This document shows, one piece after another, positions 5,042 through 63,888 of a DNA stretch of 64,000 nt. The notes under the pieces are model-generated. The model saw only the letters and a program-made list of their open reading frames with translations. It made no database searches and was not told where the DNA came from. The translations under genes were made by a program, and so were the position numbers. Within the stretch, counting starts at the first letter, position 1. Each line of letters starts with the position of its first letter. The DNA comes from Oscillatoria sp. FACHB-1407. Lineage in GTDB: Bacteria > Cyanobacteriota > Cyanobacteriia > Elainellales > Elainellaceae. The DNA lies in assembly GCF_014697545.1 (NCBI RefSeq), contig NZ_JACJSA010000004.1, positions 348,479-412,478 on the forward strand, read 5' to 3'.

Positions 5042-5133
5042 TTACCTGAAAGCGCAATGTTTACTTTTCAGACATTTTCTTCTCAATGATTTGGAATTGT
5101 TCTAGCAACGATTGAACAATAACCTCGCTTCAA

Positions 5134-5740: not shown

Positions 5741-6113
5741 TGATCAACAACTAAATGTAATTTCAATAGTAAGTATTGATGGATTTTTGGATTAAACTCT
5801 GGTAGTAAGCATTTATAACTAATCGTGATTCATAAATTGGCATTTTAAGCCAAAACTAAAAAGAAAACCTTATTCTTCAAATTAATGAATTTGAGATACA
5901 AAGCTAAACAAAATCAAAACTTATATATCTAATTTGAACTTTCATTTTTTAATTGCATTTATGAGCTTAAAAAAACCTTTAAGAGAAGCTAATCTATTTT
6001 CAAGTAAGAAATTAAGCATTTGACAAATAGCCAAGACCAACTGGAAAGAAAGCCCTTCTTTTCGGCTACTTCGCAATGTCAAATATTCACTCATGTTAGG
6101 AGGAAAATTGCTC

Positions 6114-7460: not shown

Positions 7461-7870
7461 GCAGTTTGGTGGCGATCGCCCCTTGTAATAAGAGCGATGC
7501 TTTGACTTGTGGCGATCGCTATTGAACTTCGCTTATTCATCGCACTCAGCCCTGACATCGTAGTTACACATATGACCCAAATCTTTTGGGCTTGGCGATT
7601 GAAATCACAGCTAAAAGAGCAAAACCCGTCGATGTGGGTTACAGAAAACCTTGATGCATTGAGTCCGCGCAGATGGGCTTCGATCAAATAGGTGCGAATT
7701 CCATTCGCCTGCCACAGCACGGAATATCAAGGGTTTTGGAAATTTTGTCAGTCAACCAGATATAGCCGTAACCACATTCGATAGGGCGGAGGCGAGTCAG
7801 GAAACTCCCCCAATATCAGGGTTTGAACGATTGCCTTTGTCCTATGCTCTCTGACCAAAGCTATCAGAAC

Positions 7871-7983
7871 TTATACCGACTTAAAGAGTTTTTTGGGCAA
7901 ATCAGCGTTGGGGAGGGGTTTGGTACTGCCAAACCCGTACAAGCATTCGTCGCCTTCACAATTCAAATTGATATTACGCAGTT
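7871..7983. repeat. Dispersed repeat, copy 1
   Basis: Begins ataccgacttaaagag and contains ggggtttggtactgccaaac, then acaagcattcg. It aligns over about 110 bp with 17877-17992 (ataccgatttaaacgg, ggttggcaccgccaaccc, acaggcattgagcg). The central inverted repeat (TTGG-TAC-TGCCAA) is kept by compensating changes between copies (GGTTTGGTACTGCCAAACC here, GGTTGGCACCGCCAACC there), which suggests a selected hairpin. Confidence 0.65.
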
Positions 7984-42267: not shown

Positions 42268-42393
42268 AGCAGAAGCACCCAAGCTGACAATTACCTTAGC
42301 GCTTTTGTCAAAAATTCTCCACTCTCAGCTAAAATCTCATAGCGATTACCTAAAATATCGGTGTAAATTAAATTGAAGTGATTTCATTACTTT

Positions 42394-43824: not shown

Positions 43825-43853
43825 ACTGCTTAGGAAGAATGAGAATTGAGTGA

Positions 43854-46800
43854 ATGGTTGAAACGCAAATACCCTTAAATCCCTTTCCGGGGCTGCGACC
43901 TTTTAAAGCTAGTGAAGCAAATCTGTTCTATGGTCGAGAGGGTCAAACAGAAGAGTTAATTCACATTCTGGAACGTACTCATTTTCTGACAGTGGTAGGG
44001 GTTTCTGGAAGTGGAAAGTCTTCACTGGTTCGAGCTGGACTATTGCCTTCCTTGAGTGACGAGCGCACAAGTGGAGCAGCTCCAATCTGGCGAGTTTCTA
44101 TCTCCCGTCCTGAAGACGATCCGATAGGCAATTTAGCAAAAGAATTGAACAAGATACCGGAGCTACAACGCAGAACCTACAACGATGATGGAACAGAATC
44201 TATCTCTCTTAACTTTTCTTTGGATATCATTGAAACACTACTCCGTCGTGGCTCTCGAGGATTAATTGAAGCTGTTTGGCAAGCCAGACTTCCAAACCCT
44301 GTTAAGTTGCTGATTGTAATCGATCAGTTTGAAGAACTGTTTCGATTTAAGCAGGTTCGTCCAAGACAAGATGCCATCAATGAGGCAGCAGCATTTGTCA
44401 AACTTCTAATTCAGGCTACTAAAAAGCAACAAGAACTCCCCATTTATGTGGTTCTTACCATGCGATCTGACTTTTTGGGTGAATGTGCTCAGTTTCGTGA
44501 TCTGCCTGAAGCCATTAACGAAGGGCAGTACCTGATTCCCCGCATGACCCGTGACCAGATTCGATCTGCAATTGAGCAACCAATCGCAGTGGATGGCGCT
44601 ACGATCGCTCCACAACTCGTCAATCGATTGCTAAATACGGTAGGCGATAACCCTGATCAATTGCCTATTCTGCAACATGCTTTAATGCAAACCTGGAATG
44701 TATGGGTTGCTGACCATCAGCCCAATGAACCTCTTGACTTGAAACACTACGATGCGACTGGAGGAATGGAGCAAGCTCTTTCCAGACATGCAGACTCAAT
44801 TTATGAGGGGTTGCCGAGCGATCGCCACCAAAAGATTGCCGAAGTTCTCTTTAAACGCTTGACGGAACGAGATGCTGAAGGATATGAAACGCGCCGTCCT
44901 ACGGCTTTATCTGAGATCTGTGACATTGCTAGCGCAACAGAGACTAGGGCAACGGAAGCTGAAGTCATTGAGGTAGTTGATGCCTTTCGGGCCGAGGGGC
45001 AATCGTTTCTCATGCCGCCAGTTGATGAAGTTGAAACCCTGACCGCAAACTCAAAACTCGATATTTCCCATGAAAGTCTGATGCGGGTTTGGGAAAAGTT
45101 AAAGGGCAAAGTTGAAGGGGACAAAGTTACGAAAGGCTGGATAGCAGAAGAAGCAGAATCTGCTGAGACTTATCGTCGGTTAGCACAAGCAGCAGTGTGT
45201 CAAAGAGAACTGTGGAGAGGGATTGACCTTGCTAGTGCTTGGGAATGGAAAACGAAAGAACAACCTAACCAAGTCTGGGCAAGACGATATAATCCCAAAA
45301 ATACTTCACCATCTCTCTTTCAGCAGGCGATCGATTTTCTCAATAAGAGTGAACAAAAACGACTACACGATCTCAATCGCGAACGACGAATTGGCATTAC
45401 CTTAATTACGCTTTCTATTGCAACTGCAATTACGGCCATCATGGCGTCTATCCAATACGTTAATGCTCAAAATAGTCGGCTAATTAGTAATTTATCCAAC
45501 GCGGAAGCCTCGTTTGCATTAAATGATCAACTGGCTGCATTGGTAACCGCTTTAGAGGCAAGTGAACAAATCCAGCAAACTTCCATTACAAACCCTGTCA
45601 CTCGACTGTCAGCGATCGCCACCCTTCGCCAGATTGTGTACAGCATTCAAGAACGCGATCGCTTCATTCATGGGGTTCAAACAGGCGATAATCTGAACAA
45701 TAAAGGAGGACGGGTTTACAGTGCCAGCTATAGCCCTGATGGTCGCTGGATTGCTTCCGGTGGGGGTGATTCTACGGTCAAACTGTGGTTGCCCAATGAG
45801 TCGCAACCTCACACCCTAGAAGGGCATACTGAGGCTGTCCACGACGTTGCCTTTAGCCCAGATGGGCAATTGCTTGCCTCAGGCAGTGCTGACGATACCA
45901 TTAAAATTTGGCAATTAGATGGAACACTCGTGCAAACAATGGGTAACCCTGGCAGGGTTGGCGATCTCACATTTGACGTTGAGGATATCAGCTTTAGTCC
46001 TGATGGCACTTTGATTGCTGCAGCTTACAAAGATGACACCATCAAGCTCTGGGATCTCAATGGTACTCAAATCAAAACCTTTGCAGGGCATCAGGGATAT
46101 GTAACTGCAGTGAACTTTAGTCCAACAGGCGATCGCCTTGTTTCTGGCAGTGTAGATGGAACCGTTAAACTTTGGAATTTAGATGGAACTCTGCTGCAAA
46201 CTTGGAACCATAGCGAGGGTGTGCAAGATGTTGCCTTTAGTTCCGATGGACAATGGGTTGCTTCAGCCGGAGATGATAATGAGGTAAAACTTTGGCGTGC
46301 AGATGGTGGATCGTCTCAAATACCTCAAGTATTGCTCGGACATAACGACACAATCTATAGTGTGAGATTTAGTCCAGATGGTCAAACTGTTGCCTCTGCC
46401 AGTAAGGATAACACGATCAAACTGTGGGAGGTAAAAGATGGAAGGTTACTCAATACCTTTCAAGGTCATCGTCAGAGCATCTTGAGTGTGGATTTCAGCC
46501 CTGATGGAGAAACCTTAATTTCTGCGAGCTTTGACAACACGATCCGGTTGTGGAACCGTGCCCCTACCAACCTTGAACATCTGTCTGGGCTTGCCGATAT
46601 CAGGAGTATTAGCATTAGCCCTAATGGTCAACTGCTGGCTTATGGTAGTGACGATGGCACTCTAACCCTTTGGAATAGAGTGACTCGTACTGCTCCAAAA
46701 GTATTAGCAGTAAATACAGAGGCGATTCTTAGTACTGCCTTCAGTTCAGATAGCCAATACCTTCTGACAGGAGATACAGATAGCACTGTCAAGCTTTGGA

Positions 46801-47561
46801 GAGTTGGAGAAGATCAGCCTTTGCGTACTCTAGAAATGGATGATGGTGATGATTGGGGACAAGGTGCGAGGGCAGTGAATGCTGTAGGTTTTAGCCCTAA
46901 TGATCAACAAATTGCGGCTGCCAGTTCAAATGGCATGATTACGTTGTGGAATATCAACGGCACTCGACTCCGCACCTTCCAAGCCCATGACAAAGAAATC
47001 TATGGGGTGTCATTTAGTCCAAATGGTACTCAAATCGCCTCTGCCAGCGCAGATAACACGGTTAAACTCTGGACTCTAGAGGGTAGACGACTGCAAACCT
47101 TTAGTGGACATCAAGACCAGGTTTACAGTATCCGTTTTAGCCCTGATGCTCAGGAGCTTGTCTCCGCCAGTGCTGATAGGACCATTAGACGCTGGCGACT
47201 GGATGGCACCGAAATAGGGCAACCTCTCCGAGGCCATGAAGATGCAGTGCGTGATGCCATTTTTGCCCCTGATGGAAACACGATTGCCTCTGCTAGTTAT
47301 GACAACACGGTAAGACTTTGGAGTAAGGACGGAAACCCAATACGTACCCTTGAAGGCCATCACGATTTTGTTTACAGTCTGAGCTTTAGCCCCGATGGCA
47401 AAACCCTCGCTTCTGCCAGTGCCGACGATTCTATTATTTTGTGGAATTTAGATCTTGATAATTTGATCCAGCGGGGTTGCCAATGGGTATTTGCTTATAT
47501 TCAGAAAAATCCTGGTTTTCGTGAAGACAGTTTGTCTCTCTGTAGCGATCGCCAACCCTAA
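43854..47561 (+). CDS. nSTAND1 NTPase with 14 WD40 repeats
   Basis: 1235 residues. Starts with the nSTAND1 signature NPFPGLRPFKASEANLFYGR, Walker A VGVSGSGKSSLVRAGLLPSL near residue 48 and Walker B LLIVIDQFEELFRF near 155. A transmembrane helix lies about 512-535 (GITLITLSIATAITAIMASI). The C-terminal 620 residues hold 14 WD40 units (FSPDG...IASAS.D.TVKLW), enough for two seven-blade propellers. In this architecture the propellers sense a trigger and the STAND module oligomerises, here probably to activate the adjacent TIR protein (inference). It sits between the TIR gene (29 bp) and a TPR gene (35 bp). Confidence 0.93.
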   Translation: MVETQIPLNPFPGLRPFKASEANLFYGREGQTEELIHILERTHFLTVVGVSGSGKSSLVRAGLLPSLSDERTSGAAPIWRVSISRPEDDPIGNLAKELNKIPELQRRTYNDDGTESISLNFSLDIIETLLRRGSRGLIEAVWQARLPNPVKLLIVIDQFEELFRFKQVRPRQDAINEAAAFVKLLIQATKKQQELPIYVVLTMRSDFLGECAQFRDLPEAINEGQYLIPRMTRDQIRSAIEQPIAVDGATIAPQLVNRLLNTVGDNPDQLPILQHALMQTWNVWVADHQPNEPLDLKHYDATGGMEQALSRHADSIYEGLPSDRHQKIAEVLFKRLTERDAEGYETRRPTALSEICDIASATETRATEAEVIEVVDAFRAEGQSFLMPPVDEVETLTANSKLDISHESLMRVWEKLKGKVEGDKVTKGWIAEEAESAETYRRLAQAAVCQRELWRGIDLASAWEWKTKEQPNQVWARRYNPKNTSPSLFQQAIDFLNKSEQKRLHDLNRERRIGITLITLSIATAITAIMASIQYVNAQNSRLISNLSNAEASFALNDQLAALVTALEASEQIQQTSITNPVTRLSAIATLRQIVYSIQERDRFIHGVQTGDNLNNKGGRVYSASYSPDGRWIASGGGDSTVKLWLPNESQPHTLEGHTEAVHDVAFSPDGQLLASGSADDTIKIWQLDGTLVQTMGNPGRVGDLTFDVEDISFSPDGTLIAAAYKDDTIKLWDLNGTQIKTFAGHQGYVTAVNFSPTGDRLVSGSVDGTVKLWNLDGTLLQTWNHSEGVQDVAFSSDGQWVASAGDDNEVKLWRADGGSSQIPQVLLGHNDTIYSVRFSPDGQTVASASKDNTIKLWEVKDGRLLNTFQGHRQSILSVDFSPDGETLISASFDNTIRLWNRAPTNLEHLSGLADIRSISISPNGQLLAYGSDDGTLTLWNRVTRTAPKVLAVNTEAILSTAFSSDSQYLLTGDTDSTVKLWRVGEDQPLRTLEMDDGDDWGQGARAVNAVGFSPNDQQIAAASSNGMITLWNINGTRLRTFQAHDKEIYGVSFSPNGTQIASASADNTVKLWTLEGRRLQTFSGHQDQVYSIRFSPDAQELVSASADRTIRRWRLDGTEIGQPLRGHEDAVRDAIFAPDGNTIASASYDNTVRLWSKDGNPIRTLEGHHDFVYSLSFSPDGKTLASASADDSIILWNLDLDNLIQRGCQWVFAYIQKNPGFREDSLSLCSDRQP

Positions 47562-48219: not shown

Positions 48220-48435
48220 TTAAGAGGGATCAACACCTACAATTACTGCTAACGCATTAGCATACTGTTCTAAAGCCTGGTTGAGTTCTTTCAATTCGCG
48301 TCGGAGTTGGGGCTCCTCAGAGCAATTCTTTTCATGGGCTTTAGGACTCAGATTTGACGGACGTTCTGCTTCCCATACTTGCAGAGCTGGATGCCACTTT
48401 GTTAAGAAAGGGCGCAATCCCTTATTACAGAGGTT
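48220..48435 (-). pseudogene. 3' remnant of an interrupted gene
   Basis: In frame on the minus strand the sequence reads NLCNKGLRPFLTKWHPALQV then EWEAERPSNLSPKAHEK-like and QLRRELKELNQALEQYANAL before the stop. This looks like the conserved C-terminus of a hypothetical protein seen in restriction/toxin-type loci. Its upstream part is replaced by IS630 sequence beginning around 48436. The 5' part of the gene is not found beyond the IS, so it was deleted or the IS arrived with rearrangement. Confidence 0.55.
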
Positions 48436-48436
48436 C

Positions 48437-49391
48437 TCAGATGAATAAGCCACAGTGAGCGAACCAGCCAAGAGCGTCATCAGTAGAAATGCGCTCGTTA
48501 ATAATCTGGGTTAAAGCTTGGTCGAGGGCTTCGACCGTTCCAGCTTTAGCTGAACGCAAAAGTTGCTTGAGTTTTGACCAACATAACTCAATCGGTGAAA
48601 GGTCGGGGGAGTAGGGTGGTAGAAATACAACCTTTGCACTCACTGCTTCAATGGCCTCGCGCACCACTCAGGCGTGTTGCACCGGCAAGTTATCCATGAC
48701 AATGATGGCTCCTATCCACAATTGAGGAATCAGAATCTCTTGAATGTAGAACAAGAACACGTCGGTATTAACGCTGCCAACGATGCTCATGGTGGCAATC
48801 AACCCATCAATACTCATGCCCCCAATCAACGAGATATTCTTGCCGCCATCTCCAGGAGCCTCGTTGTCATACAGGCGTTCACCAATCGGAGCACGACCAT
48901 ACAAGCGCGTCATCCCCAGGTGAATGCCCGTTTCATCAATGAATACCAGATTATGAGGATCGATGGAGAAGCTCCACAGTCGATGAGCAAACCGCAGATC
49001 CTTGACCCTTTGAGTGTCTTGTTCAGATGCAATCAGTGTTTTTTTTGACGCTTAACTTGAGTTTGCACACAGCCTGTTGCATGGTCGAAACACTCACTTC
49101 CACCCCAGTGCGTTGAGCAAAGCGTTCACACAGTTCTTTGAGCAGGGCATCCGGTTGAGCTGTAACTAAGGCTGCAACAATGGGCAACTGCTCTTTTGTC
49201 AACTTGGCGATGGCTCCTCCTCCGTGTGGCTTAGGCTCCACTGTGCCCGTTTCACGATAGTGTCGCCTCAAATCTCGGATAAAAGACAAGCTCACCTTGA
49301 ATCGCTCGGCTAGTTGCCGTTGTGATCCTTCTTTCGCTTCATACGCGGCAATGATTCGTTGGCGTAAATCGACAGACAAAGGGGCAGGCAT
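48437..49391 (-). mobile_element. IS630 family insertion sequence, transposase broken
   Basis: The first ORF (49023-49391) has the HTH region PLSVDLRQRIIAAYEAKEGS and VSTMQQAVCKLKLSVKK. It then runs into an A8 tract (about 49033-49040), where a -1 shift joins it to the catalytic ORF: FIDETGIHLGMTRLYG (first Asp), IIVMDNLPVQHA (second Asp), LSPIELCWSKLKQLL (Glu). Frameshifting at such a tract is normal for IS630. However, an in-frame TGA at 48668-48670, between the second Asp and the Glu, truncates the product, so this copy is probably dead. I could not define the terminal inverted repeats by eye; the true ends lie slightly outside these coordinates. Confidence 0.85.
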
Positions 49392-51035: not shown

Positions 51036-52460
51036 CTATAGAGTCCTCGGAGCACTACACACAACCCGAAAACCAATAAAACAGCTGCGGAAGTCGGGCG
51101 AACACCAGGTGCGACAGGCAGAACGGCAAAGCCCCGGAAGGTCGTCCCAGGAGCCGCCGTGAACGACACGATCAGCATTCTCATTCTCAATTAACCAGGC
51201 AATTCCATCCGTTGGGGCACCTTGATAATTGCTATGCCAATGGTCTTGACACCACTCATTTACATTTCCATGCATATCACATAGCCCAAACGCATTCGCA
51301 ATCCCAAACAGATCTACAGGAGTTGTTTCTTTTCGATACACCCCCTTGGGAGCATTTTTATAAGTGTAGTTACCATTGTAATTTGCCAGATCAGTCGTAA
51401 TCGTTTCTCCAAAATGAAATGGGGTAGTCGTTCCGGCACGACACGCATATTCCCACTCTGCTTCTGTAGGTAAGCGATACTGAAGTCCCGTCTTTATAAA
51501 CAATCGCTTACAAAACTCCACTGCTTCATGCCAGGATATATTTTCTACAGGACGTGTATCACCCTTGAACACGGATGGAGCAGGATTCAGTTCCAGCGCA
51601 ACCTTTGGCAATCTAGCTACTGTTTTCCACAACTGCTGAGTGACAGGATATTTACCCATGAAGAACGGTTGAACTGTAACTTTATGCTGAGGGTATTCTC
51701 CGTCTTTTGAACCCTCTTCCAAAGAAGGAGATCCCATTCTGAAGGCTCCAACAGGGATATAAACCATTTCAAAAAAAATACCCTTCCCCACATCTTCAAT
51801 GTATTGCCTAGCTTCTCCTTCTATCCTCTCCGGATTCACAACCTTACGAGTAACTCTCTCCGTTTTTCGCCCCAGCCAACCTGTCTTGATCTCTTCGGTC
51901 GTCTCAGAAATACTAAGAGTGACAACCTTGAACTTAAACTGCTCAAGTGCAATGGGTGGGGGTGGCTTCAGTGCAGGAACGTTCCCTTCAATTGCTTCAA
52001 TGATCCCTTCCATCCCTGCTTTGAATAACGTTGTATTCTCCCTTGTGATTAAACGACAGGCATTTGCCCCTAGCAATCCTTGAATCGATTGAGGTAGTTC
52101 TTCTTTCCTAGGTATAGTAGCTTCATTCAACAAGACTGGAATCACATAACGCTTATTCTTCAGGGCTAGTTCAATTTCTTGTCGTACCCAATCATCAGGA
52201 TTATCCAAGCGCCTTTTCCATCCATCCTTCGCATTCAGCCAGTCAGAACCAATCACCACCAGCATGACTTTACTGTTTTCTACTGCTGGTTTAATCTGCT
52301 CTGCAAAATTAGCGCCACCAGGAATTGATTCCCGGTCTAAAAACACCTGCCCCTGTCCAAAGTGAGCGATCAGAGCCCTATACATGAGGTTAACCGCTTC
52401 GTCACTATCACTTCTGCGGTAGGAGATGAAAATTGATTCCTTGGGGGATGTTGGGGGCAT
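51036..52460 (-). CDS. TIR domain fused to FGE/SUMF1-type C-lectin domain
   Basis: 474 residues. TIR domain at 1-150 (ESIFISYRRSDSDEAVNLMY, FLDRESIPGGANFAEQIKPA, MLVVIGSDWL). A linker (GWLGRKTERVTRKVVNPERI) follows, then a formylglycine-generating-enzyme-like domain (about 225-474): FEMVYIPVGAFRMGSPSLEE, YPVTQQLWKTV, RLPTEAEWEYACRAGTTTPF, GLCDMHGNVNEWCQDHW. The end VVHGGSWDDLPGLCRSACRT and SCFIGFRVVCSAPRTL has exactly the layout of the variable region of diversity-generating retroelement targets. Such TIR-FGE fusions are known cyanobacterial DGR target architectures, but no reverse transcriptase or template repeat is in this window. True sulfatase-maturing function is unlikely. Confidence 0.9.
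   Translation of the reverse strand: MPPTSPKESIFISYRRSDSDEAVNLMYRALIAHFGQGQVFLDRESIPGGANFAEQIKPAVENSKVMLVVIGSDWLNAKDGWKRRLDNPDDWVRQEIELALKNKRYVIPVLLNEATIPRKEELPQSIQGLLGANACRLITRENTTLFKAGMEGIIEAIEGNVPALKPPPPIALEQFKFKVVTLSISETTEEIKTGWLGRKTERVTRKVVNPERIEGEARQYIEDVGKGIFFEMVYIPVGAFRMGSPSLEEGSKDGEYPQHKVTVQPFFMGKYPVTQQLWKTVARLPKVALELNPAPSVFKGDTRPVENISWHEAVEFCKRLFIKTGLQYRLPTEAEWEYACRAGTTTPFHFGETITTDLANYNGNYTYKNAPKGVYRKETTPVDLFGIANAFGLCDMHGNVNEWCQDHWHSNYQGAPTDGIAWLIENENADRVVHGGSWDDLPGLCRSACRTWCSPDFRSCFIGFRVVCSAPRTL
51055..51160 (-). other. Putative DGR variable repeat (VR)
   Basis: On the coding strand it runs from GGCGGCTCCTGG to GGTTTTCGGGTTGTG. Between these conserved anchors the codons are strikingly poor in adenine and vary where DGR templates usually carry AAC/AAY codons (around RGGSWNNNPxNCRSAYRNNN). 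This fits adenine-directed diversification, but no template is present here to compare. Confidence 0.5.
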
Positions 52461-53050
52461 CGTCTTAAATCCAGAGGGTAACTAAAACTAAAAACACCGT
52501 TCACCTAGCGGACTCCAGACAAAACCCAGTTGGATTTGTCTTTCACTGGACATTAAACTCTAGTTACTATAAAACTTCCAACGTATCCCTCGGTATTCTC
52601 TGCTACCTGCCTCACAGCAAGGCGCAATCTCCAAAGCCATATTGAAACACTTGTTCTAGCCGTTGTTTTGCTCAAAAGCCATTTGCGTCAGACAAAAATC
52701 CTTTATCCCCACTGACAAGAACATGACTGGCAGCAGTTCTCATTGGGGTGTAATCAGGATAAATGTTTTTAAGTGCCACCAACTTCTGAAACCTTTACCC
52801 AATGGAACTTCTAGAATTTAATATTTCATAGCAAATCCTTCCTAAAGGGTTACGTGGAATCAAGCGTTTCAAGCGTTCGTGGCACTAAATTACGCGCATT
52901 CAGATTACACCCCCTGATTGTTCAACAGGGTAATCAGCGTAATCACCTTTTGATATCTCTAGACCTGCCTATAATAACCATCCTGAACGATGACTGGAGA
53001 TTTGGGATAACCTTATATTTTGACAGAGTTTTACCGCTGTTTGAGTTTCT
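52461..53050. other. Spacer between TIR-FGE and deoxyribosyltransferase genes
   Basis: 590 bp holding both divergent promoters. On the minus strand 52672-52785 a short open stretch reads QKLVALKNIYPDYTPMRTAA and then SHVLVSGDKGFL before TGA, reminiscent of the end of a PIN-type or similar protein, with no start; probably a relic. No repeats of note. Confidence 0.35.
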
Positions 53051-54208
53051 ATGAAATGCGTATACGCAGACCAGCCATATCCAGAAACATTCTTCAAGTC
53101 CCTATACTTGGCTGGTCCAACCCCTCGTGATTCCAACGTTTCCTCTTGGCGACCCAACGCTTTAAAGATATTAAAACAGTTGGGATATGACGGCGTTGTT
53201 TTTATTCCTGAATCTCAAGACGCTCAGCGGAGTAGCGACTATGACCAGCAAATGGACTGGGAATTGGCAGCAATGCGGCGATCGGATGTCATTCTTTTTT
53301 GGATACCCGCTACGCCAGATACTTTACCTGCCTATACCACTCGTGTTGAATTGGGGCTACAAATTCATAGCGGTAAGGTTATTCTTGGCATTCCGCAAGG
53401 GGCTTATCGAACTCGCTACCTTGAAAGGTTAGCCAGCCAGCGCAACATCGCGGTTTATTGCACTTTAGAAGAAACGCTTAACGCTGCTTACAATCAGCTA
53501 GATGCGGGTGCAGAGCGATCGCACGCTGAGTGCTTAATTCCCTTAGAAATTTGGCAAACCAGACATTTCCAACAATGGTATTCCTCACAAACTTCAGCAG
53601 GTCATAGCCTTGAAGATGTCCCTAACATCGAATGGGTTTTTCGGGTTGGTGCGGATAAGTCATTTCCCCTCCTGTTAGCGATTCATGTCGCAATGAAAGT
53701 GAAGGGTGAGGAACGGATCAAATCAAATGAAGCTGTCATTATTAGACCCAGCATTGTAACAGTGTGCGTGTACTGCCTTGGTAAAACGAGAAATCGCGAT
53801 CGCTTTGTTCTCATTAAGGAATACAGAACTTCTGCCCTGAATGCTCAAGGATTTGTCTTTGAATTGCCAGGGGGATCTTCCTTCAAACCGGGGATTGAAC
53901 TCTCTGAGTTAGCAATGGAGGAGTTAGAAGAAGAAACCGGAATGCGGTTTTCTCAAGATCGCTTTCGGATGGTAACTCAACGCCAAATAGTCGCAACGCT
54001 GGTTGCCAATGAAGCATTATTGATGGCGATCGAATTAGAACCTGCGGAAATGGATGCGATCGCCGCCCAAGCTAGGCAAACTTATGGTAATTTCTCTGAG
54101 ACGGAACAAACCTATTTGCATGTATTCACTAGAGAACAAATCATGGAAGGAGGTTTCGTCGATTTTGTAACGTTGGGTCAAATTGCGTTAGTAGGCTTTG
54201 ACAAATGA
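53051..54208 (+). CDS. Nucleoside 2-deoxyribosyltransferase-like domain fused to NUDIX
   Basis: 385 residues. The N-terminal domain (about 15-165) matches the Nuc_deoxyrib_tr2 family: SLYLAGPTPRDSNVSSWRPN, YDGVVFIPES, DQQMDWELAAMRRSDVILFW, TTRVELGLQIHSGKVILGIP. The Glu in TRVELG is the expected nucleophile position. The C-terminal NUDIX domain (about 235-380) has the box GGSSFKPGIELSELAME followed by ELEEETGMRF; the usual R-E of the box appears as E-E. Together these suggest cleavage or exchange of a nucleoside/NAD-derived molecule and hydrolysis of a diphosphate. It overlaps the TIR-SLOG gene by 4 bp (ATGA), a strong sign of joint function in NAD+-related signalling. Confidence 0.87.
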   Translation: MKCVYADQPYPETFFKSLYLAGPTPRDSNVSSWRPNALKILKQLGYDGVVFIPESQDAQRSSDYDQQMDWELAAMRRSDVILFWIPATPDTLPAYTTRVELGLQIHSGKVILGIPQGAYRTRYLERLASQRNIAVYCTLEETLNAAYNQLDAGAERSHAECLIPLEIWQTRHFQQWYSSQTSAGHSLEDVPNIEWVFRVGADKSFPLLLAIHVAMKVKGEERIKSNEAVIIRPSIVTVCVYCLGKTRNRDRFVLIKEYRTSALNAQGFVFELPGGSSFKPGIELSELAMEELEEETGMRFSQDRFRMVTQRQIVATLVANEALLMAIELEPAEMDAIAAQARQTYGNFSETEQTYLHVFTREQIMEGGFVDFVTLGQIALVGFDK

Positions 54209-56520
54209 TGTCATCTCACGTTGATCCGGTGCGAATCTATGTCCTCTGGCACTCAGACTGTTTAGTGGGGAAGGAATTTGCAAAAGATATTTATACGTGG
54301 TTTCGTGGAAATCCCAGTGATCTTTCTCAATGCGGATACGGCATCCCAGTAGAGTACCGCAGCTACCCTTCAGCAGTTCCACCTGACAAACGGCGAGAAA
54401 TAGAACTCGACAACGCTGAAATTAATGTTGTCGTGCCACTGGTGGATGAACACATGGTGGTCGATGCCCCTTGGAGGAAGGTTCTAAGCGAGCTTGCTCA
54501 GCGAAGCTTTAAAACTGCTGCGAGTTCTCAAACCAATGTGAATTCCGAGACCAATGAGAGCTTTAAAGCCAGGACATTGATTTCCCCGGTCGCATTGCAT
54601 CCTGCTGCCTATCAGCTTCCTAGCGAGATTACTCAACTCAACTTCCTGCGAATTGACCGGGTGAATGATCCCCAAGATTGGGACGAAAAACACCGTTTGC
54701 AAGTCCGTCGAAAACGCCTTTTGAGTCTTTTAACTCAGGTGTGTTGTCGCTTATTGTGGCAACAAGATGAAACAGGAGCAATTAATATTGATGCTCCATC
54801 ATCTCCAATTAAAGTATTTATCAGTCATGCCAAGAGTGACGGAACAGATATTGCTGAAACAATTCGCGAACAAATTTATCAGCACGGTCAACTGGAAGCC
54901 TTTTTTGATGAAAGCGATCTGGCGATCGGTTACGCCTGGGATTCAGGGCTGAGAAACAATGCTCAACTGAACACTGCTGCAATGATTGCAGTTCTCACCG
55001 ATAGCTACGCAGGCAGACCGTGGTGCCGTCGAGAAATTCGTCTGGCGAGAACAGCAAAGCCTGTTTTGACTAAACAGTTTAAAGGCGATCGCGGCAATGA
55101 TATTGAGGAAAGTCCTTATGGATGGACAGTGAAACCACTCGTTGTTGTGGATGCTCTTGTTAATGGAACCAACTCTTTTCTTCCAGACTTTGGTCATGCT
55201 CCAATTATTAGATGGAACCCTGAGCAAGTTGAGCTTCTGATTGATCAGTTACTCCGTGAAATTCTGTTATATGGTTATAACGAAAAACGAGTCAGAAACT
55301 TGCTCAAATATTGCCCTAAAAGGGATGGGCAGCACTATTTGAACTGTATTCCTGATCTGCAAACCATTTTAGAACTCTGGCAAGCAACCCAAAAACGCAG
55401 TTTAAAGCAAGAAATAGAATCTACTTTAAGTAGGGTAGTTGTTCCTCCGCCTGGTATTTCCCTCAGTGAAGAGCAAATGCTGAGAGAGTTTGTGCCATTG
55501 ATGAGCGAACTTCAGATCGTGACTTTCGATGACGTGCTGGAACTCGATGATCAAACCGTCTCGTTCACTGCAAATCAGGCTCCCCTTCAACAAAAGCTCA
55601 TTGCAGTATCAATATCCGATAGTGCAGATCTCATAAAGTTCGGATACGGGATGGAACATTTGCATGAACTGACCATTAATATCGCTCGTTTAGTTCTCCG
55701 TTTGGGTGGCAATTTAGCCTACGGTGGAGACCTTCGTCCCAGTGGGTTTACTGAAACACTCTTCCTACTTGCCCGTGGGGAACACATGAATGCCAAAGGC
55801 TGGGAACAACGCCTTTATAGCTTCTTAGCCTGGCCTTATTATCAATCCTTAACAACCGTCGAAGAAGCCAAACTCATCAATACCTGCTGTTTTGTCAGAG
55901 TTCGCCCAAAAGACGTAGAACCCAAAGAACCTTTCAATGACACGATCGATCCAAATACCTCTAAAGGTGCCTATCAAGCAATGCGCTGTCTCAGCTACAT
56001 GCGTGACTGGATGACCCGTGGTGGCGCTCCACGCTTTGATGGAGAAACAGCCCCACCTCTAGCCGCTCGAATTCTAGTGGGTGGTAAATCTCAAGACTTT
56101 ATGGGTATCATGCCTGGCTTGTTTGAAGAGTATCTTCTAGCGGCTGAACATCAAATCCCGACCTACATTCTCGGCGGATTTGGTGGCGCTGCCAACATCC
56201 TGGCTGAAGCTTTAAAGACCCAGGATGATCAGCAAGGTATGCTGCACCATAAAAATTACAAGAGCAAACAATCCGCCCTTTTAGCAGAGAAATACAAACT
56301 GAATCCCGCAGAGCAATATAAACCGTATCCTGGTGGTTCCCATCCTGCGCAGCTATACGATCGCCTCAACTCTTGCTTGAGAACCGCCAGGGAAAATAGA
56401 CTGAAACCCCTCAAAAACGGTCTTACCGCCGAAGAAAATGAACAGCTAATGACCACGACAAATAGCAGAGCGATTTTATCTCTTCTAAGTAAAGGACTGA
56501 TACATACTTTAGGGAATTAA
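54205..56520 (+). CDS. Double TIR protein with C-terminal SLOG-like domain
   Basis: 771 residues. The first 135 residues form a TIR-like domain (RIYVLWHSDCLVGKEFAKDI, EINVVVPLVDEHM). A canonical TIR at about 202-330 follows: SPIKVFISHAKSDGTDIAET, LEAFFDESDLAIG, YAGRPWCRREIRLART with the catalytic Glu region. The C-terminal 310 residues have a Rossmann-like SLOG pattern: LRLGGNLAYGGDLRPSGFTE near 500 and ILVGGKSQDFMGIMPGLFEE, YILGGFGGAANILAEAL near 620-670. In Thoeris, a SLOG domain senses the cyclic ADP-ribose product made by a TIR protein; here synthesis and sensing may sit on one chain (inference). Start overlaps the preceding gene. Confidence 0.85.
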   Translation: MMSSHVDPVRIYVLWHSDCLVGKEFAKDIYTWFRGNPSDLSQCGYGIPVEYRSYPSAVPPDKRREIELDNAEINVVVPLVDEHMVVDAPWRKVLSELAQRSFKTAASSQTNVNSETNESFKARTLISPVALHPAAYQLPSEITQLNFLRIDRVNDPQDWDEKHRLQVRRKRLLSLLTQVCCRLLWQQDETGAINIDAPSSPIKVFISHAKSDGTDIAETIREQIYQHGQLEAFFDESDLAIGYAWDSGLRNNAQLNTAAMIAVLTDSYAGRPWCRREIRLARTAKPVLTKQFKGDRGNDIEESPYGWTVKPLVVVDALVNGTNSFLPDFGHAPIIRWNPEQVELLIDQLLREILLYGYNEKRVRNLLKYCPKRDGQHYLNCIPDLQTILELWQATQKRSLKQEIESTLSRVVVPPPGISLSEEQMLREFVPLMSELQIVTFDDVLELDDQTVSFTANQAPLQQKLIAVSISDSADLIKFGYGMEHLHELTINIARLVLRLGGNLAYGGDLRPSGFTETLFLLARGEHMNAKGWEQRLYSFLAWPYYQSLTTVEEAKLINTCCFVRVRPKDVEPKEPFNDTIDPNTSKGAYQAMRCLSYMRDWMTRGGAPRFDGETAPPLAARILVGGKSQDFMGIMPGLFEEYLLAAEHQIPTYILGGFGGAANILAEALKTQDDQQGMLHHKNYKSKQSALLAEKYKLNPAEQYKPYPGGSHPAQLYDRLNSCLRTARENRLKPLKNGLTAEENEQLMTTTNSRAILSLLSKGLIHTLGN

Positions 56521-56982: not shown

Positions 56983-57456
56983 ATGGCTTACTTAGTTGCA
57001 CCTCAATATCCAGAACATCCGTTTCCAATTGAGAGTTCTAATAAAAAGAGGGCTAGGTATCTGGCAGCTAAAAAACTAGAGAACCTGGCTAATGACCCCA
57101 AATCAGGTGTGAAGATGCCTAATGGTTTCGACACCAGGCGATTTGTTGAAGTTGGAAAAGATGCATTCATGCCAAGCAACAAAAGAGAAATCGAACAACA
57201 CGTAAAGTCTCTTACAGTGTTTTGGGAGTCAAAGAAGGAGTCTGATCAGCTTCGTGAAGAATCAAAAAAAGCTTATAAAGATATAGATTTACTATTTGAA
57301 GCAAAAACTTTAACCGAAGAAGAATTTAGCAGAATTCGAAAGAGCCTTGACATTATTGAGAAATATGCAAAATGTTTTTCAGCTTACAAAAAAGCTTCAG
57401 AGAAAGCTGAAGAAGCCAAAAAATATCTTGATGAAAATTTAGATTTGTCAGAATAA
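56983..57456 (+). CDS. Coiled-coil hypothetical protein, partner of TIR gene
   Basis: 157 residues; not recognised. After an N-terminal MAYLVAPQYPEHPFPIESS, the chain is mostly helical and very rich in K and E, with coiled-coil character from about 70 to the end (SKKAYKDIDLLFEAKTLTEE, SEKAEEAKKYLDENL). Only 2 bp separate it from the start of the TIR gene, so they form an operon and are probably translated together. The local AT content is high compared with the housekeeping region, suggesting acquisition by transfer. A sensor or adaptor role for the TIR protein is inference. Confidence 0.75.
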   Translation: MAYLVAPQYPEHPFPIESSNKKRARYLAAKKLENLANDPKSGVKMPNGFDTRRFVEVGKDAFMPSNKREIEQHVKSLTVFWESKKESDQLREESKKAYKDIDLLFEAKTLTEEEFSRIRKSLDIIEKYAKCFSAYKKASEKAEEAKKYLDENLDLSE

Positions 57457-57458
57457 GC

Positions 57459-59618
57459 ATGATAGAAAATCAGAAAGTAAAGCCAGTTTTCTTCTCTGAA
57501 TTTTACGGTGATTCACCGGAAGTAGAAGAAGAATGGCAATGGTTTGATCCACCACTTGACAGAGACACTCCTCTATGCATTGATCCGTTTCAGATACTAA
57601 AAACTAATCACCCTCTTTTTTCTAAATGCAAAAATAAAATCTCATCTTTTTTTGAATTCGCATTCACACTTGCCTCTGAGTCTAATAGAGATTCATCAAA
57701 ATATAAAAAACTCATAAATGACATACTTGTATTTCCAGAAGTAGAAGAGGTCTGTTTAGGTTTCTCCAGAAATGAGAATATAGTTTTTCCTCGAGAGAAA
57801 CGAGGAAGGGGAGTAGGCGGCGAAAGGGTTGCTAAAGCTCTAATTAAGCTATCCCATCCTCCAAAACATTTCGAGCAAATTGAAATTTCAACTAGAGGTA
57901 TTGGAAAAGATTCTATTAGTGATATAACAGCCAATCTTATAAAAAGAGAGTTAATTCAATATACAAGGTATGTTTGCAATAGGATACTTGGTATTAGCGA
58001 CGAAAGTCTTACATGGTGTGTCATAAAAAACTGTGACTTCGACTTCCAAAATTATGAGTGGATTGATCAAGCATTCTATTTACCTATAAATCCTTGTTAT
58101 AGAATTAGGCAGCCAGTCCTTTTAGTTCCAAAAGCTTTTTTACGCGAAACACCTTCTATTAGCTCTGAGCAATTTCTTAAATTTTTTAAGGATACTCGAA
58201 GTGCTATTTTATCTAGCAGAAATGAAAATAAATTAGAACTTGAGAAGGAATCTGAATCAAGAGACGATATTTTAGGGATTAATGATGAGGAAGAAGTTCA
58301 ATTTTTAACGGACGAGAAAATTGCTAATGCATCGGATGAAGCAATTATTAATGAAATCAACAATCGCCCTCATCTTCGAGCAAAACTCATTGAAAAATAT
58401 GTAGAGAATGTTGATAATAATCCAGGCATTTACACACAATATGATTTCGAAAATGATCCTGAAAAGATTCATTTTCCTAGAGTTGTAAGAAAGTGTATCA
58501 GACAAAATCCCTTATCTATTGCTAGTTATTCTAATACAACGGAAGTACATAAGCTTCTCAAGTTCTTGATCCTCAAGCTAAGACTATTTACTGAAGATAG
58601 AGAATTTGAAGGATTTAAGTTTTTATGGAAAATATCAAAAAAATCCGACAATCTTGAATGTCGCTTTCAAGGTCAGCGCTCTATCATAACTCTACTTAGA
58701 AGATTTATAGAAGAATACTGCTATGAGTATGACATGCACGTAATCAAACACACTGACCTTGGGAAAGAACCTGTAGAATTTTTGGTTGCCAGCCCAAGAA
58801 TTAAAGATAAAGTTTTTTTGTTAGCCAATACAGTTGAATATGTAAGTTTCGAAAATGATAGCTTAAAGCAAATACTTGAAAAAATTGATAACGTAAGCCA
58901 TCTTTACTATATTGTTTTTCTCTCAAAAGGAGAACATGATAGTAAAATTCATCAAATCATTCAAGAGGTTGAGACCATTGAGTTTAGCAATACTGACTTC
59001 CATTTACTTTTCATAAATGCAGCTCAAGAGAGAAATTTTAGGACAGATCAGTTGGAGGGTCGATATATCCTAAAAGAAGAAAGAGAGGTATATATTAGCT
59101 ATTCGCGTAAAGATGGTAAAGAAATAAAAGATAGGGTATGTGAAGCCCTCAAAAGTAGAGGTATTACTGCTATTTTTGATGAAAAGGAAATACGATATAA
59201 AGATTCCCTAAAAGATTTCATGCAAAGAATTGGTAGAGGAAAGAGCGTGATAACAATTGTCAGTGATGGGTATTTCAAGTCCAAATATTGCATGAAGGAA
59301 TTACTCGAAATTGAGAGCAATGGAAATTTTGAGAAGAGAGTTTTCCCCTTAGTTTTATCCAATGCGAATATTTATGATGACAAGAAGATAGCTGATTATG
59401 TAGATTTTTGGAAAAACAAATTAGATGAGAAATATAAGACTGGAAGGATTACCAATGAAGCCGATATACAAGATGCACGTTTATATCAAGATATTATTTC
59501 TATGCTGGATAAAATTCTCGACAAACTACGTGACTTTCTGATACGACCTATTGATGAACATATTAGCTCTAATTTTAATGAAGTAATAGGTGCGATTGAG
59601 CAAGAGATGTCGCGTTGA
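57459..59618 (+). CDS. Unknown N-terminal domain fused to C-terminal TIR
   Basis: 719 residues. The first 220 residues hold conserved-looking blocks FSEFYGDSPEVEEEWQWFDP, LCIDPFQILKT, RGVGGERVAKALIKLSH and RGIGKDSISDITANLIKREL; I do not recognise the family, though it looks enzymatic. A helical middle region (about 300-500) follows. Residues 545-690 are a TIR domain: REVYISYSRKDGKEIKDRVC, ITAIFDEKEIRYKDSLKDFM, SVITIVSDGYFKSKYCMKEL, LLEIE with the likely catalytic Glu. Distinctly AT-rich, like its partner, and unlike the flanking genes. Layout fits an NAD+-depleting abortive infection module with an unfamiliar sensor half. Confidence 0.82.
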   Translation: MIENQKVKPVFFSEFYGDSPEVEEEWQWFDPPLDRDTPLCIDPFQILKTNHPLFSKCKNKISSFFEFAFTLASESNRDSSKYKKLINDILVFPEVEEVCLGFSRNENIVFPREKRGRGVGGERVAKALIKLSHPPKHFEQIEISTRGIGKDSISDITANLIKRELIQYTRYVCNRILGISDESLTWCVIKNCDFDFQNYEWIDQAFYLPINPCYRIRQPVLLVPKAFLRETPSISSEQFLKFFKDTRSAILSSRNENKLELEKESESRDDILGINDEEEVQFLTDEKIANASDEAIINEINNRPHLRAKLIEKYVENVDNNPGIYTQYDFENDPEKIHFPRVVRKCIRQNPLSIASYSNTTEVHKLLKFLILKLRLFTEDREFEGFKFLWKISKKSDNLECRFQGQRSIITLLRRFIEEYCYEYDMHVIKHTDLGKEPVEFLVASPRIKDKVFLLANTVEYVSFENDSLKQILEKIDNVSHLYYIVFLSKGEHDSKIHQIIQEVETIEFSNTDFHLLFINAAQERNFRTDQLEGRYILKEEREVYISYSRKDGKEIKDRVCEALKSRGITAIFDEKEIRYKDSLKDFMQRIGRGKSVITIVSDGYFKSKYCMKELLEIESNGNFEKRVFPLVLSNANIYDDKKIADYVDFWKNKLDEKYKTGRITNEADIQDARLYQDIISMLDKILDKLRDFLIRPIDEHISSNFNEVIGAIEQEMSR

Positions 59619-60298: not shown

Positions 60299-62260
60299 CT
60301 ATCCGAGAATAGAGTGAAGTTGAGCTAGAGCACTATCAATAGCTTCTTGTACCTCCTTTAAGTGTGAAACAGAGTTTTCAGAACTATGAAAGCTAACTTT
60401 CATAACAAATAATCTTCTGGATGGAAGGATTCCCGCTTCTTGAAATTGTTTCATTGTCCAGTGAATTCGACGAATAGCGGCTTCTGCAATGGTTTCTGTG
60501 AATTCATCAAGGCTTTGCTTTGTTAAGGGCAATTTCGATAGATTATCTCTGATTTGTCCACGCCGTCCTATTTTTCTAGAAATTCCTTCTATTGTGATAC
60601 GTTTAGGACGCGACGTATCATTTAGTAAACGTTGTCCTGCATCGCGAACTAGCAGCGCTAGTTCACAGTCGATTTCTTCCCATTCTCTTACAGTTAGTTT
60701 CTTAGGGGGTATTACTTTATTCTTATTAGCTGGAAAATTAGCATCCAGCCAATCTCTGTCATATCCATATAGAAAAAGATAGGCTTTTAGGTGTTTCTCT
60801 CTAAAATAGCTTCTGGTTTTATCTGAATTTTCTAATTTAACCCCTAAAAGCTCTTCCCTATATTTCTTCCGTAGATCATCTATGCTTTCTTTAACTAGAT
60901 CTTTCTCTGAGTAATCAACAGACCTTACTTCCTTTGTACCCTGCCTAGATAAATCAAGACCTAATCGAAAAGCGTACTTCTCAAGCGTCGTTCCCGCCAT
61001 GCGGAATACTCTCTTGATCTCGAACAGCGTTATATTTGGGTCACTCCAAAATTGGGTGAATTTTTGTTCCCATTGCTCTCCATATTCTACAACTCTAGAA
61101 TATCGAAATCTATCTTCTGGTACTTTGTCAGGACCAAACCGATAATAAGAAAAACCGCACTTACACTTAAATAATCCTGTTGGCTGACGTCTGGAACTAC
61201 CATTCTTGTGTCTAATCAACTGATACTCCTCAATCACGGGTGAATTGAAGAATTTACAAGCATGATTCAAGCAAGGCCAAGGCCCGTCACCAAAAGGTTT
61301 AATTTCAAGAGGTAAGTCAAAGAAATCTTTGACCGAATACCCTAGAAATCTTATCAAGAGCAGGTGGCATAGTGGATTGAGTGCTGTTTGCCTAGTTCCG
61401 ATTTGTAATATCTGATTAAGCCATCTCTCAATAATTTTCTCTTCTATCTCACAACCAAGTTGCTGAAGTATCTCCCTTCCATAAAACTCTTTGAAGCATT
61501 TTACCAATTTATCTATACTAACTACTTTACCCCTACTAGATATTGAAAATCCCTTCTCAGCAAGTAACCTACGATAAGTTTGGGCTAAGGAATCTAATCC
61601 AGGAGCCAAATTTTGCTGACTTAATAACCAAGAAATATCCTGTGCTAGGTTGAGTAAGGTAATATGCTTGGAGTTTGATAAATCTATAGGACGTGCTGGT
61701 ACAGCTTGTATTTCATTTTCAGCTACAAAATAATAGGATCGTCTGTTCTCAGTTCTGGGATTAATATGGCTTCTATCCAAAAAAATTTTATGGATAGAAC
61801 ATACCTCCATCCCTACACATTGATGTGAACGGTGCCAGTAAGTCTCATCAAATTCTCTTCTATCATTTTCCACACAGAATGAACAAAATTTGAGTTTCTC
61901 CTGTTGCTGACTTTTTGATATCCCTAATCGAGCATAAATTTTCATGCCGTTACCGTACGTCATATCATTGCGCGTAAGAGCAATCTGTTCAGATCTAGCG
62001 AAAGGAATGTATAGAGGTAGTAGAGTTCCTTCGTCAATGAGTTGATTGACATTGTACGGATGTCCAGAGGGCAGAGTGCTGACAAAATCTTCAAGATGAC
62101 TGGGAAAATCAACGACCGCCTTAACGAGGGTACCAAATAGGCTTTTTGGTAGGTCATGCTCAGCTGGATAACGTAATACTTCTTGATAACGTCCAAACAG
62201 GCTATAAAGCAGTTCGTCAGGATAGCGGTTTAAACAAAACCCAAGAGTATGTTTTGTCAT
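60299..62260 (-). CDS. tnsD: TniQ/TnsD-type target selection protein
   Basis: 653 residues from ATG 62260; a TTG 39 bp upstream is less likely. N-terminal TniQ signature NRYPDELLYSLFGRYQEVLR with zinc-ribbon cysteines (KFCSFCVEND, SHQCVGMEVCSIH) at about residues 130-165, and a second cysteine cluster WPCLNHACKFF / KCKCGFSYYRFG near 345-390. The long C-terminal half is typical of TnsD rather than short TniQ of CRISPR-associated elements, so site-specific DNA recognition is expected. It follows tnsC with a 50-bp gap. Target site not identifiable here. Confidence 0.88.
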   Translation of the reverse strand: MTKHTLGFCLNRYPDELLYSLFGRYQEVLRYPAEHDLPKSLFGTLVKAVVDFPSHLEDFVSTLPSGHPYNVNQLIDEGTLLPLYIPFARSEQIALTRNDMTYGNGMKIYARLGISKSQQQEKLKFCSFCVENDRREFDETYWHRSHQCVGMEVCSIHKIFLDRSHINPRTENRRSYYFVAENEIQAVPARPIDLSNSKHITLLNLAQDISWLLSQQNLAPGLDSLAQTYRRLLAEKGFSISSRGKVVSIDKLVKCFKEFYGREILQQLGCEIEEKIIERWLNQILQIGTRQTALNPLCHLLLIRFLGYSVKDFFDLPLEIKPFGDGPWPCLNHACKFFNSPVIEEYQLIRHKNGSSRRQPTGLFKCKCGFSYYRFGPDKVPEDRFRYSRVVEYGEQWEQKFTQFWSDPNITLFEIKRVFRMAGTTLEKYAFRLGLDLSRQGTKEVRSVDYSEKDLVKESIDDLRKKYREELLGVKLENSDKTRSYFREKHLKAYLFLYGYDRDWLDANFPANKNKVIPPKKLTVREWEEIDCELALLVRDAGQRLLNDTSRPKRITIEGISRKIGRRGQIRDNLSKLPLTKQSLDEFTETIAEAAIRRIHWTMKQFQEAGILPSRRLFVMKVSFHSSENSVSHLKEVQEAIDSALAQLHSILG

Positions 62261-62310
62261 TTGATTATGATCTAGAGAAACTTTTGATTGTGCTTGCAAA
62301 TTCTAGAAAC

Positions 62311-63888
62311 CTAAACAGGCGATCGCACATAACCTGCTTCTACAAGAGATTTGTGATAAGGGGTTGAGCCATCTTCAGCTTTGAATGATGCGATTTCCAA
62401 AAGGCTTTTTCCTGTAAAATCCACATCGAATGATTGAGTTTCAGACTCTGCTACTTGCAAGGAAGTAGAGCCTCCTTTTCCTTCTTGCATTTCATCAGCG
62501 GAATTCTGTTCGGGCTGTGTCGTATCCTCTTCCGAATCGCTCTGCTCCTGCTCAGCTTGAGTTTCTGGCGATGCAACGTTGATATTTTGATCCATCAATT
62601 TCCTGTGAATTTTCTTGATGAATGATTCTTTATCTATGAAAATATCCTCATAGTCCTCAAGAGCGTCCCAATCTTTGGCTCTAAGAGCCTTGAGCATTGG
62701 ACCTGGTAGATTCAAATCGTCTTTTGCTGCCGATCGGATCATTCCAACTGTAATTTTCTCAACCCCGGAGACGATCGCTCGAATCTGAGCAAGCATGTAG
62801 ATCTTGACAGCGAAATCTATAATGCCAAAGCTCTCTTCGTGAAGCGCATTTTTTAGCTTCCGAGTTAAGGGAGAGACCTGTGTAGTGTACTGATATTTCC
62901 AAATGGACTCTACAAACAAATCCCAGCACTCATCCAAATCCATCGGCTCCCAAACAGCGTCTCCTAAGCCAGCACCACGACGCGTCTGATGCATCTTCCT
63001 ACTCAAAATTGATTTTGCTCTAGGAGTGCCGACAAGTACTACTGGAATTTGCATTCTATTTCTCAGTTCAACAAAGAAATCTAGCATTTCTTCATGACCG
63101 CCACTTTTTAACTTACTTAAGAATTGAATTTCATCGACTACTAATACGCCAATGCAATGTATAGCAGCTATACGAGCCATATCTGGAACCATGTCCCTAG
63201 CTGCTCGTTTATCTTTGCAGTAACGGGAATAGTAGTCTGTTCCCAATAGACTATCAATCGCTTTAAAGAAACTGAGAACAAGACCCTTAATTGAACCATC
63301 GTAAGGGCAATCAAGTTTGAGCCATACAATTTGTTTAAAGATGAAATCTTTACCCTTGTAATGAGTGTGGCAGATTACTTGCGGAAACCAAAGTAGAATT
63401 TCCTCAATAGTGCTTGTTTTCCCCATACCAGGTGTACCTAGAAATGTGAATCCCGCAAGTTTAGAGCGCCGAGATTTTTCTTTAAAGGGTTCACCGCGAC
63501 GTAAGGCTTCCACCTTAGAATTTACATCTCGAAAGTGTTTTGGAGAGAGAGGATTACGATGTCTCAATCCTCCACGAATGAGTCGCTCAAATTTAGAGAA
63601 AATATCTGTATGGATATGCCAAGGCTTAAAAATGTCAAATAACGAGAGCGTTAAATGAATACGGTCGTGAGGTGGTAGATTTCGTTCCTCCTCGTCATAA
63701 TCAGGTGAGCAAATCAAAGCCATTCCTTGTTCTTCCTCTGACAAGGTAGGAGGAAGAGGTTCAATCAGTGGATTGTCTCGATAAATAGAAACAGTTTGCT
63801 CATTGTACACAGCATCAACAACATCCCCCATTAGAAGAGCGGAAGGTTCCTTACTCATTGATTCCTGGACGACTGATTTTTTCTTCAT
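62311..63888 (-). CDS. tnsC: TnsC-type AAA+ transposition ATPase
   Basis: 525 residues, long like Tn7 TnsC. Walker A FTFLGTPGMGKTSTIEEILL near residue 150 and Walker B IGVLVVDEIQFLSKL near 245; sensor region PVVLVGTPRAKSILSRKM. N-terminal basic region and C-terminal acidic low-complexity tail (EQEQSDSEEDTTQPEQ) ending SLVEAGYVRSPV. TnsC links target-bound TniQ/TnsD to the TnsA/TnsB transposase. The transposase genes would be expected upstream, which is beyond the right edge of the window. Start ATG preceded by AAAGAG. Confidence 0.9.
   Translation of the reverse strand: MKKKSVVQESMSKEPSALLMGDVVDAVYNEQTVSIYRDNPLIEPLPPTLSEEEQGMALICSPDYDEEERNLPPHDRIHLTLSLFDIFKPWHIHTDIFSKFERLIRGGLRHRNPLSPKHFRDVNSKVEALRRGEPFKEKSRRSKLAGFTFLGTPGMGKTSTIEEILLWFPQVICHTHYKGKDFIFKQIVWLKLDCPYDGSIKGLVLSFFKAIDSLLGTDYYSRYCKDKRAARDMVPDMARIAAIHCIGVLVVDEIQFLSKLKSGGHEEMLDFFVELRNRMQIPVVLVGTPRAKSILSRKMHQTRRGAGLGDAVWEPMDLDECWDLFVESIWKYQYTTQVSPLTRKLKNALHEESFGIIDFAVKIYMLAQIRAIVSGVEKITVGMIRSAAKDDLNLPGPMLKALRAKDWDALEDYEDIFIDKESFIKKIHRKLMDQNINVASPETQAEQEQSDSEEDTTQPEQNSADEMQEGKGGSTSLQVAESETQSFDVDFTGKSLLEIASFKAEDGSTPYHKSLVEAGYVRSPV

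Follow-up and report, generated by a model that had tools for sequence, protein, structure and literature searches.

A deoxyribosyltransferase-NUDIX gene overlapping a TIR-SLOG gene in a cyanobacterium: a possible Thoeris-like circuit with its own signal eraser

Two overlapping genes in the cyanobacterium Oscillatoria sp. FACHB-1407 raise the question of what a deoxyribosyltransferase (DRT)-like domain fused to NUDIX might do next to a protein that joins a TIR to a SLOG domain. The genes, termed gene 1 and gene 2 below (Table 1), lie in a 64,000-nucleotide stretch of contig NZ_JACJSA010000004.1 (positions 348,479 to 412,478; hereafter the window). Our preferred answer, to which we assign a probability of roughly 40%, is a circuit of Thoeris-like design: SLOG would control a TIR-type hydrolase of nicotinamide adenine dinucleotide (NADase) in place of SIR2, and DRT-NUDIX would act as the signal eraser. 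We infer the ligand, the NADase activity, the erasing activity and the role in phage defence alike.

Gene 2 provides the candidate sensor. A sequence-only reading of the locus had assigned it a C-terminal SLOG domain, and this assignment holds: the region matches the Pfam family SLOG cluster2, and its predicted fold superposes on the cyclic ADP-ribose (cADPR) sensor of the Thoeris protein ThsA. Gly-507, Gly-508, Arg-600, Gly-627, Gly-634, Gly-638, Glu-641 and Glu-642 are invariant in alignment A1 (the gene 2 product plus 32 of 71 matches from a protein collection), and all of these except the first two stay invariant in a wider SLOG set (n = 14); position 628 is lysine in 19/33 and 10/14 sequences, respectively. 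In ThsA, Arg-371, Lys-388 and Glu-403 coordinate 3'cADPR, according to an excerpt of PMC10022894, and Arg-600, Lys-628 and Glu-641/Glu-642 are their putative counterparts. Comparison of the gene 2 SLOG profile with solved chains returned nothing convincing (best E 0.47).

The same reading had placed two TIR domains in gene 2, and one of them stands. In the TIR at residues 201–357, Glu-277 of the WCRRE motif (WCxxE type) is invariant (33/33 in A1). The N-terminal 188 residues were not confirmed as a TIR: their elements follow a TIR-like order and a tryptophan is invariant, and the place of the catalytic glutamate is taken by Leu, Val, Ile or Ala in all 33 sequences. A second TIR found no support from Pfam, profile comparison or the sequences of solved chains; in the structural comparison residues 200–357 were the only ones spanned by at least one fifth of the rows, so that the N terminus was barely tested. 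With PADLOC (2023), gene 2 gave partial TIR matches only, as did chains from its Priestia (L122) and Escherichia coli (L152) relatives, and the separate SLOG genes of Pseudomonas veronii (L127) and E. coli gave none. All NCBIfam matches, searched with the window proteins only, fell far below cut-off. A PHROGs search returned a marginal match for gene 1 and none for gene 2, and a viral fold search with the whole gene 2 chain had no match at E ≤ 0.001.

Gene 1 has the composition proposed for it, a Nuc_deoxyrib_tr2-like domain followed by NUDIX. A match to PF15891 above the Pfam cut-off places the N-terminal part in the DrHyd/nucleoside deoxyribosyltransferase superfamily, and among solved folds a putative nucleoside deoxyribosyltransferase comes closest. 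When the predicted structure is compared with solved folds, the NUDIX half follows an ADP-ribose diphosphatase (ADPRase)-type fold along its full length. Asp-79 and Glu-100 of the DRT domain and Glu-291 and Glu-295 of the Nudix box are invariant (30/30) in alignment A2, which joins the gene 1 product to 29 of the 120 proteins listed among 662 matches. We presume that the DRT residues have the roles known from the superfamily, with Glu-100 as its catalytic glutamate. Elsewhere in the Nudix box, position 294 is glutamate in 19/30 sequences and position 290 is mostly Glu or Asp, not Arg.

Relatives of gene 1 occur in phages. Sixty loci in IMG/VR match it and 17 of them carry the full DRT-NUDIX architecture; none of the 60 contains a SLOG of the gene 2 family, and gene 2 itself was not found in viral contigs or annotated phages. 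Protein gp334 of Bacillus phage G (AEO93593.1) is, by annotation, a further full-length relative (37.8% identity over 99%). Section 3.3.3 of PMC9503650 lists gp334 with phage proteins that are predicted ADP-ribosyl cyclases (ARCs) of the DrHyd superfamily; it is also named in an excerpt of PMC7824862, where fusions of such domains to Nudix are described as possible toggles. Among 97 neighbors of the 17 phage DRT-NUDIX genes, six match deoxynucleotide monophosphate kinase, and six similar proteins, presumably those kinases, lie at most three genes downstream in 6/17 loci (L036, L037, L039, L040, L041 and L042).

Gene 2, fused or split, was found in five named phyla. We compared 16 loci outside the window: Cyanobacteria bacterium FACHB-471 (L002), genome G123 (L090), Gloeothece (L121 and L132, one plasmid counted once), Priestia (L122), Aureispira (L123), Pseudomonas veronii (L127), Rhizobium (L128 and L147), Rhodococcus (L129), a Klebsiella plasmid (L133), Methylorubrum (L134), Mesorhizobium (L135), Roseicitreum (L136), G349 (L137), G379 (L138, a SLOG without TIR match) and E. 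coli (L152). This is not an even sample, as 11 are plasmids, four come from the phylum of the window and the E. coli locus was reached via a plasmid. TIR and SLOG are split into separate frames in the eight Pseudomonadota loci and in Rhodococcus, and these frames overlap except in L128, which is split by an insertion.

A ThsB-family TIR gene lies within ∼4 kb in 12/16 loci (PF08937 above cut-off, 56–88 bits; L002, L132, L122, L123, L127, L129, L133, L134, L135, L136, L137 and L152). As misses we counted L138 (21.1 bits, just under the cut-off of 21.2), L147 (a weak match in a 555-aa frame), L090 and L128. As controls, a TIR model for which nine of the test loci supplied the seed sequences matches 2/125 other loci (1.1 Mb), weakly and within long frames, with PF08937 itself run on the test and not on the control loci, and one of the TIRs matches 143/72,556 plasmid records. 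A membrane-protein family recurs in five loci (L002, L090, L122, L123 and L152); L147 adds a weak match within a frame of 890 aa. Four of the five proteins have two hydrophobic segments and that of L123 has one, and Pfam SLATT matches none of them. A search for DRT-NUDIX that covered 15 of these loci found it in FACHB-471 alone. The Aureispira plasmid has a stand-alone DRT gene, which stands in one run with ThsB-family TIRs, TIR-SLOG and the membrane protein (L123, 6942–12103), flanked by type III-B CRISPR genes.

In E. coli, the TIR-SLOG part was matched, in split form, in 12/5,426 complete genomes (∼74% DNA identity over half of the query). In L152, the one of the 12 whose surroundings were read, a membrane protein, two ThsB-family TIRs, the TIR and the SLOG form five genes in one direction (4079–7982), so that the wider system could be examined in laboratory E. 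coli. Two further observations concern the neighborhoods of gene 2 relatives. Nucleotide-modification genes (Nmad2, MazG, HMUDK or UDG) with a ThsB-family TIR of their own lie nearby in Gloeothece (L132, 3978–7545), Mesorhizobium (L135, 232–5045) and E. coli (L152, 10355–12555), and may form a system of their own or extend that of gene 2. On the Klebsiella plasmid (L133, 480–1397), a gene annotated as an S-4TM pore-forming effector and the split TIR-SLOG are separated by a few kb that include insertion elements.

Taken together, these data are consistent with the following circuit. Upon infection, an ADP-ribose-type nucleotide signal would be made, in most relatives examined probably by the nearby ThsB-family TIR, and for the window copy by a maker encoded at another place in the genome, or by the gene 2 TIR itself. 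The gene 2 SLOG would sense this nucleotide and switch on the TIR of the same chain, which as a signal-gated NADase would likely deplete cellular NAD. The recurrence of a separate ThsB-family gene nearby is our reason for regarding gene 2 as sensor and effector, like ThsA. Gene 1 would destroy the signal nucleotide, keeping the trigger off and resettable; we assign it this role for three reasons: FACHB-471 also has a likely maker, the NUDIX half has the ADPRase-type fold, and the same protein is found in phages. In some relatives the membrane protein may serve as a second effector.

The gene 1-gene 2 pair is real but narrow. The 4-bp overlap noted earlier is present in the window and identical in FACHB-471, where a single DNA block (window positions 52916–56501, 88.3% identity) starts 135 bp upstream of gene 1 and stops 16 bp before the end of the last sense codon of gene 2. 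The two proteins are 90 and 88% identical, with nonsynonymous to synonymous rate ratios (dN/dS) of 0.117 and 0.151, well below 1 although averaged over both lineages. Full-length DRT-NUDIX occurs in 2/36 genomes of the order (E ≤ 1e-20; the window genome and G265, with the coordinates of FACHB-471) and in 1/386 genomes drawn from the phylum (E ≤ 1e-15; the window genome). A looser search matched 45/244 genomes, 44 of these to part of the protein only. Gene 2 is found in 4/386 genomes (E ≤ 1e-20), once across the SLOG end only, and a looser search gave 13/244, of which 11 are matches to the TIR region only. A contig scan with one protein as query returned one locus.

In the protein collection, we judged pairing by eye from longest contigs of equal size, a proxy for linkage. 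By this measure 7/11 of the closest gene 2 clusters (without the window's own) coincide with a listed DRT-NUDIX cluster, and none of 59 more distant ones does; these counts are lower bounds, since 120 of the 662 DRT-NUDIX matches were listed. The equal sizes suggest, but do not prove, that the two genes are linked. Recurrence of the pair, which the sequence-only reading had left to be checked, is thus established in FACHB-471 and indicated by proxy in seven further clusters, and the pair is otherwise rare.

Several observations weigh against the Thoeris-like circuit. ADP-ribose pyrophosphatases are marked by a proline downstream of the Nudix box, which we could not see by eye in gene 1; an invariant glutamine (Gln-312) stands near the expected place, also by eye and with the offset not settled. 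The gene 2 SLOG profile gave no significant match to two STALD sequences, so ligand identity cannot be transferred. The ThsB-family gene that comes after gene 2 in FACHB-471 has no counterpart beside the pair in the window, and a maker elsewhere or the TIR itself must therefore be assumed; the 14 PF08937 matches in the window genome are modest (best 32.1 bits) and lie in frames of 387–1,488 aa. The kinase genes downstream of phage DRT-NUDIX point to deoxynucleotides rather than ADP-ribose. Finally, 38/40 DRT-NUDIX clusters at 57–70% identity (P0084–P0123) lack a gene 2 cluster of equal contig size, although many of the 38 sit on contigs too short for both genes.

The missing neighbor would be accounted for if gene 1 itself supplied the signal. 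Its DRT/DrHyd domain would then be an ADP-ribosyl cyclase-type maker and its NUDIX domain the breaker, and gene 2 would sense the signal and act as NADase, so that gene 1 makes and erases an NAD-derived messenger which gene 2 reads through SLOG and executes through TIR. The invariant Glu-100, the prediction for gp334 and the description of DrHyd-Nudix fusions as possible toggles all favor such a closed two-gene circuit. Such a system would be Thoeris-like and carry an off switch of its own, and large phages would use the same DRT-NUDIX protein for counter-defense. Yet in FACHB-471 a ThsB-family gene accompanies gene 1, and the cyclase role is only predicted, the nearest solved fold being a putative deoxyribosyltransferase. 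We consider this self-contained immune circuit unlikely.

A slightly less likely account, in our view, is that gene 1 acts on deoxynucleotides, possibly modified ones, and that gene 2 reads a nucleotide from a pool disturbed by phage, in the manner of Kongming, whose messenger is deoxyinosine triphosphate (dITP) according to an excerpt of PMC12948488. The phage kinase genes and the MazG, UDG, HMUDK or Nmad2 genes near gene 2 relatives fit this account, but the latter may belong to a neighboring system, as a ThsB-family TIR of their own accompanies them, and the full-length ADPRase-type fold of the NUDIX half speaks against it. About as unlikely, the window pair could be a decaying, non-working remnant of a larger system, or neighbors without joint function. 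In favor of this are the rarity of the pair, the lack of an adjoining ThsB-family gene and the reduction of the membrane gene to a stub next to broken transposase pieces; both genes are nevertheless intact, with the identical overlap in two genomes and dN/dS ratios well below 1, averaged as they are over both lineages.

The Thoeris-like circuit resembles type I Thoeris in the SLOG sensor at the effector C terminus (ThsA and gene 2), in the ThsB-family gene near most gene 2 relatives examined and in the predicted NAD depletion. It differs in that gene 2 has no SIR2 match and carries a TIR in place of the ThsA SIR2, in that its SLOG belongs to another Pfam family, in the DRT-NUDIX partner and in the window copy standing without an adjoining ThsB-family gene. 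Kongming has a nucleotide messenger and an NADase output, like the predicted circuit, but employs other protein families, and the comparison serves the deoxynucleotide account only. The TRPM2 chanzyme is a single ion-channel chain, unlike the two proteins and TIR output found here. In large phages, DrHyd(ARC)-Nudix proteins such as gp334 are full-length homologues of gene 1; no SLOG of the gene 2 family stands beside them in the 60 viral loci, whereas the window holds a bacterial locus with gene 2.

SLOG-TIR immune systems exist in print as predictions, as an excerpt of PMC7824862 indicates. Like gene 2 and its relatives, they have TIR and SLOG cluster2 on one chain or in neighboring genes. 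These predictions reportedly originate with Burroughs et al. 2015. The DRT-NUDIX partner may set the present pair apart. In the literature searched, which covered few subscription papers, no paper joins SLOG, TIR, NUDIX and deoxyribosyltransferase, and neither the DRT-NUDIX partner nor the exchange of SIR2 for TIR near a ThsB-family gene was found; the terms nudix, deoxyribosyl and SLOG are all absent from PMC13232231. Overall, the domains, overlap, SLOG and pairing of the sequence-only reading were borne out, its second TIR was not and its interpretation is partly supported. If the Thoeris-like circuit is correct, SLOG can gate a TIR as well as a SIR2, and signal erasers, which the literature found discusses for the phage side, can also be built into a defense locus. 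The pair would also give gp334, a phage protein whose function has been predicted in print, a bacterial partner. Separately, two cyanobacterial STALD SLOG matches (L148, 841–2097, and L149, 1474–2751 on the minus strand) have an N terminus that looks TIR-like by eye and may represent another TIR-SLOG fusion with a different SLOG.

Table 1. Features of the gene pair and its surroundings (window coordinates)
Feature	Position	Strand	Remark
Gene 1, DRT/DrHyd domain fused to NUDIX, 385 aa	53051..54208	+	
DRT domain of gene 1, residues 16-117	53096..53401	+	
NUDIX domain of gene 1, residues 181-385, ADP-ribose-diphosphatase-like fold	53591..54205	+	predicted fold
Gene 2, N-terminal alpha/beta domain, TIR and SLOG, 771 aa	54205..56520	+	
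N-terminal domain of gene 2, residues 1-188	54205..54768	+	
TIR domain of gene 2, residues 201-357	54805..55275	+	
Catalytic Glu-277 of the gene 2 TIR	55033-55035	+	
SLOG domain of gene 2, residues 460-770; Pfam SLOG cluster2 at 461-748	55582..56514	+	
4-bp ATGA overlap of gene 1 and gene 2	54205..54208	+	present in FACHB-471 too
Upstream stretch common to window and FACHB-471	52916..53050	+	may hold promoter
Stub of the membrane-protein gene found with the pair in FACHB-471	48223..48480	-	67 residues at 48232-48432, 64% identity
Broken DDE_3 transposase pieces beside the stub	48440..48898	-	
Tn7-like TnsD/TniQ gene	60299-62299	-	downstream of pair
AAA/TniB-type gene	62311-63888	-	next to contig end

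The surroundings of the window pair are rich in TIR genes and mobile elements. Because Tn7-like TnsD/TniQ and AAA/TniB-type genes follow downstream, the pair is possibly transposon cargo. Further TIR genes lie at 42394, 51036 and 57459. The last of these (57459–59618, 719 aa, C-terminal TIR) begins 2 bp after a 157-aa gene (56983–57456); the N-terminal part of its product matches the PADLOC candidate PDC-M36A (E 1.2e-20), and it is likely another defense gene. On the minus strand, 51036–52460 encodes a TIR fused to a formylglycine-generating-enzyme-like (FGE-sulfatase) domain. A TIR-DUF4062 gene followed by an nSTAND1-WD40 gene (42394–47561) and, on the other strand, a TPS-CHAT gene (36694–42282, minus) are of conflict type.

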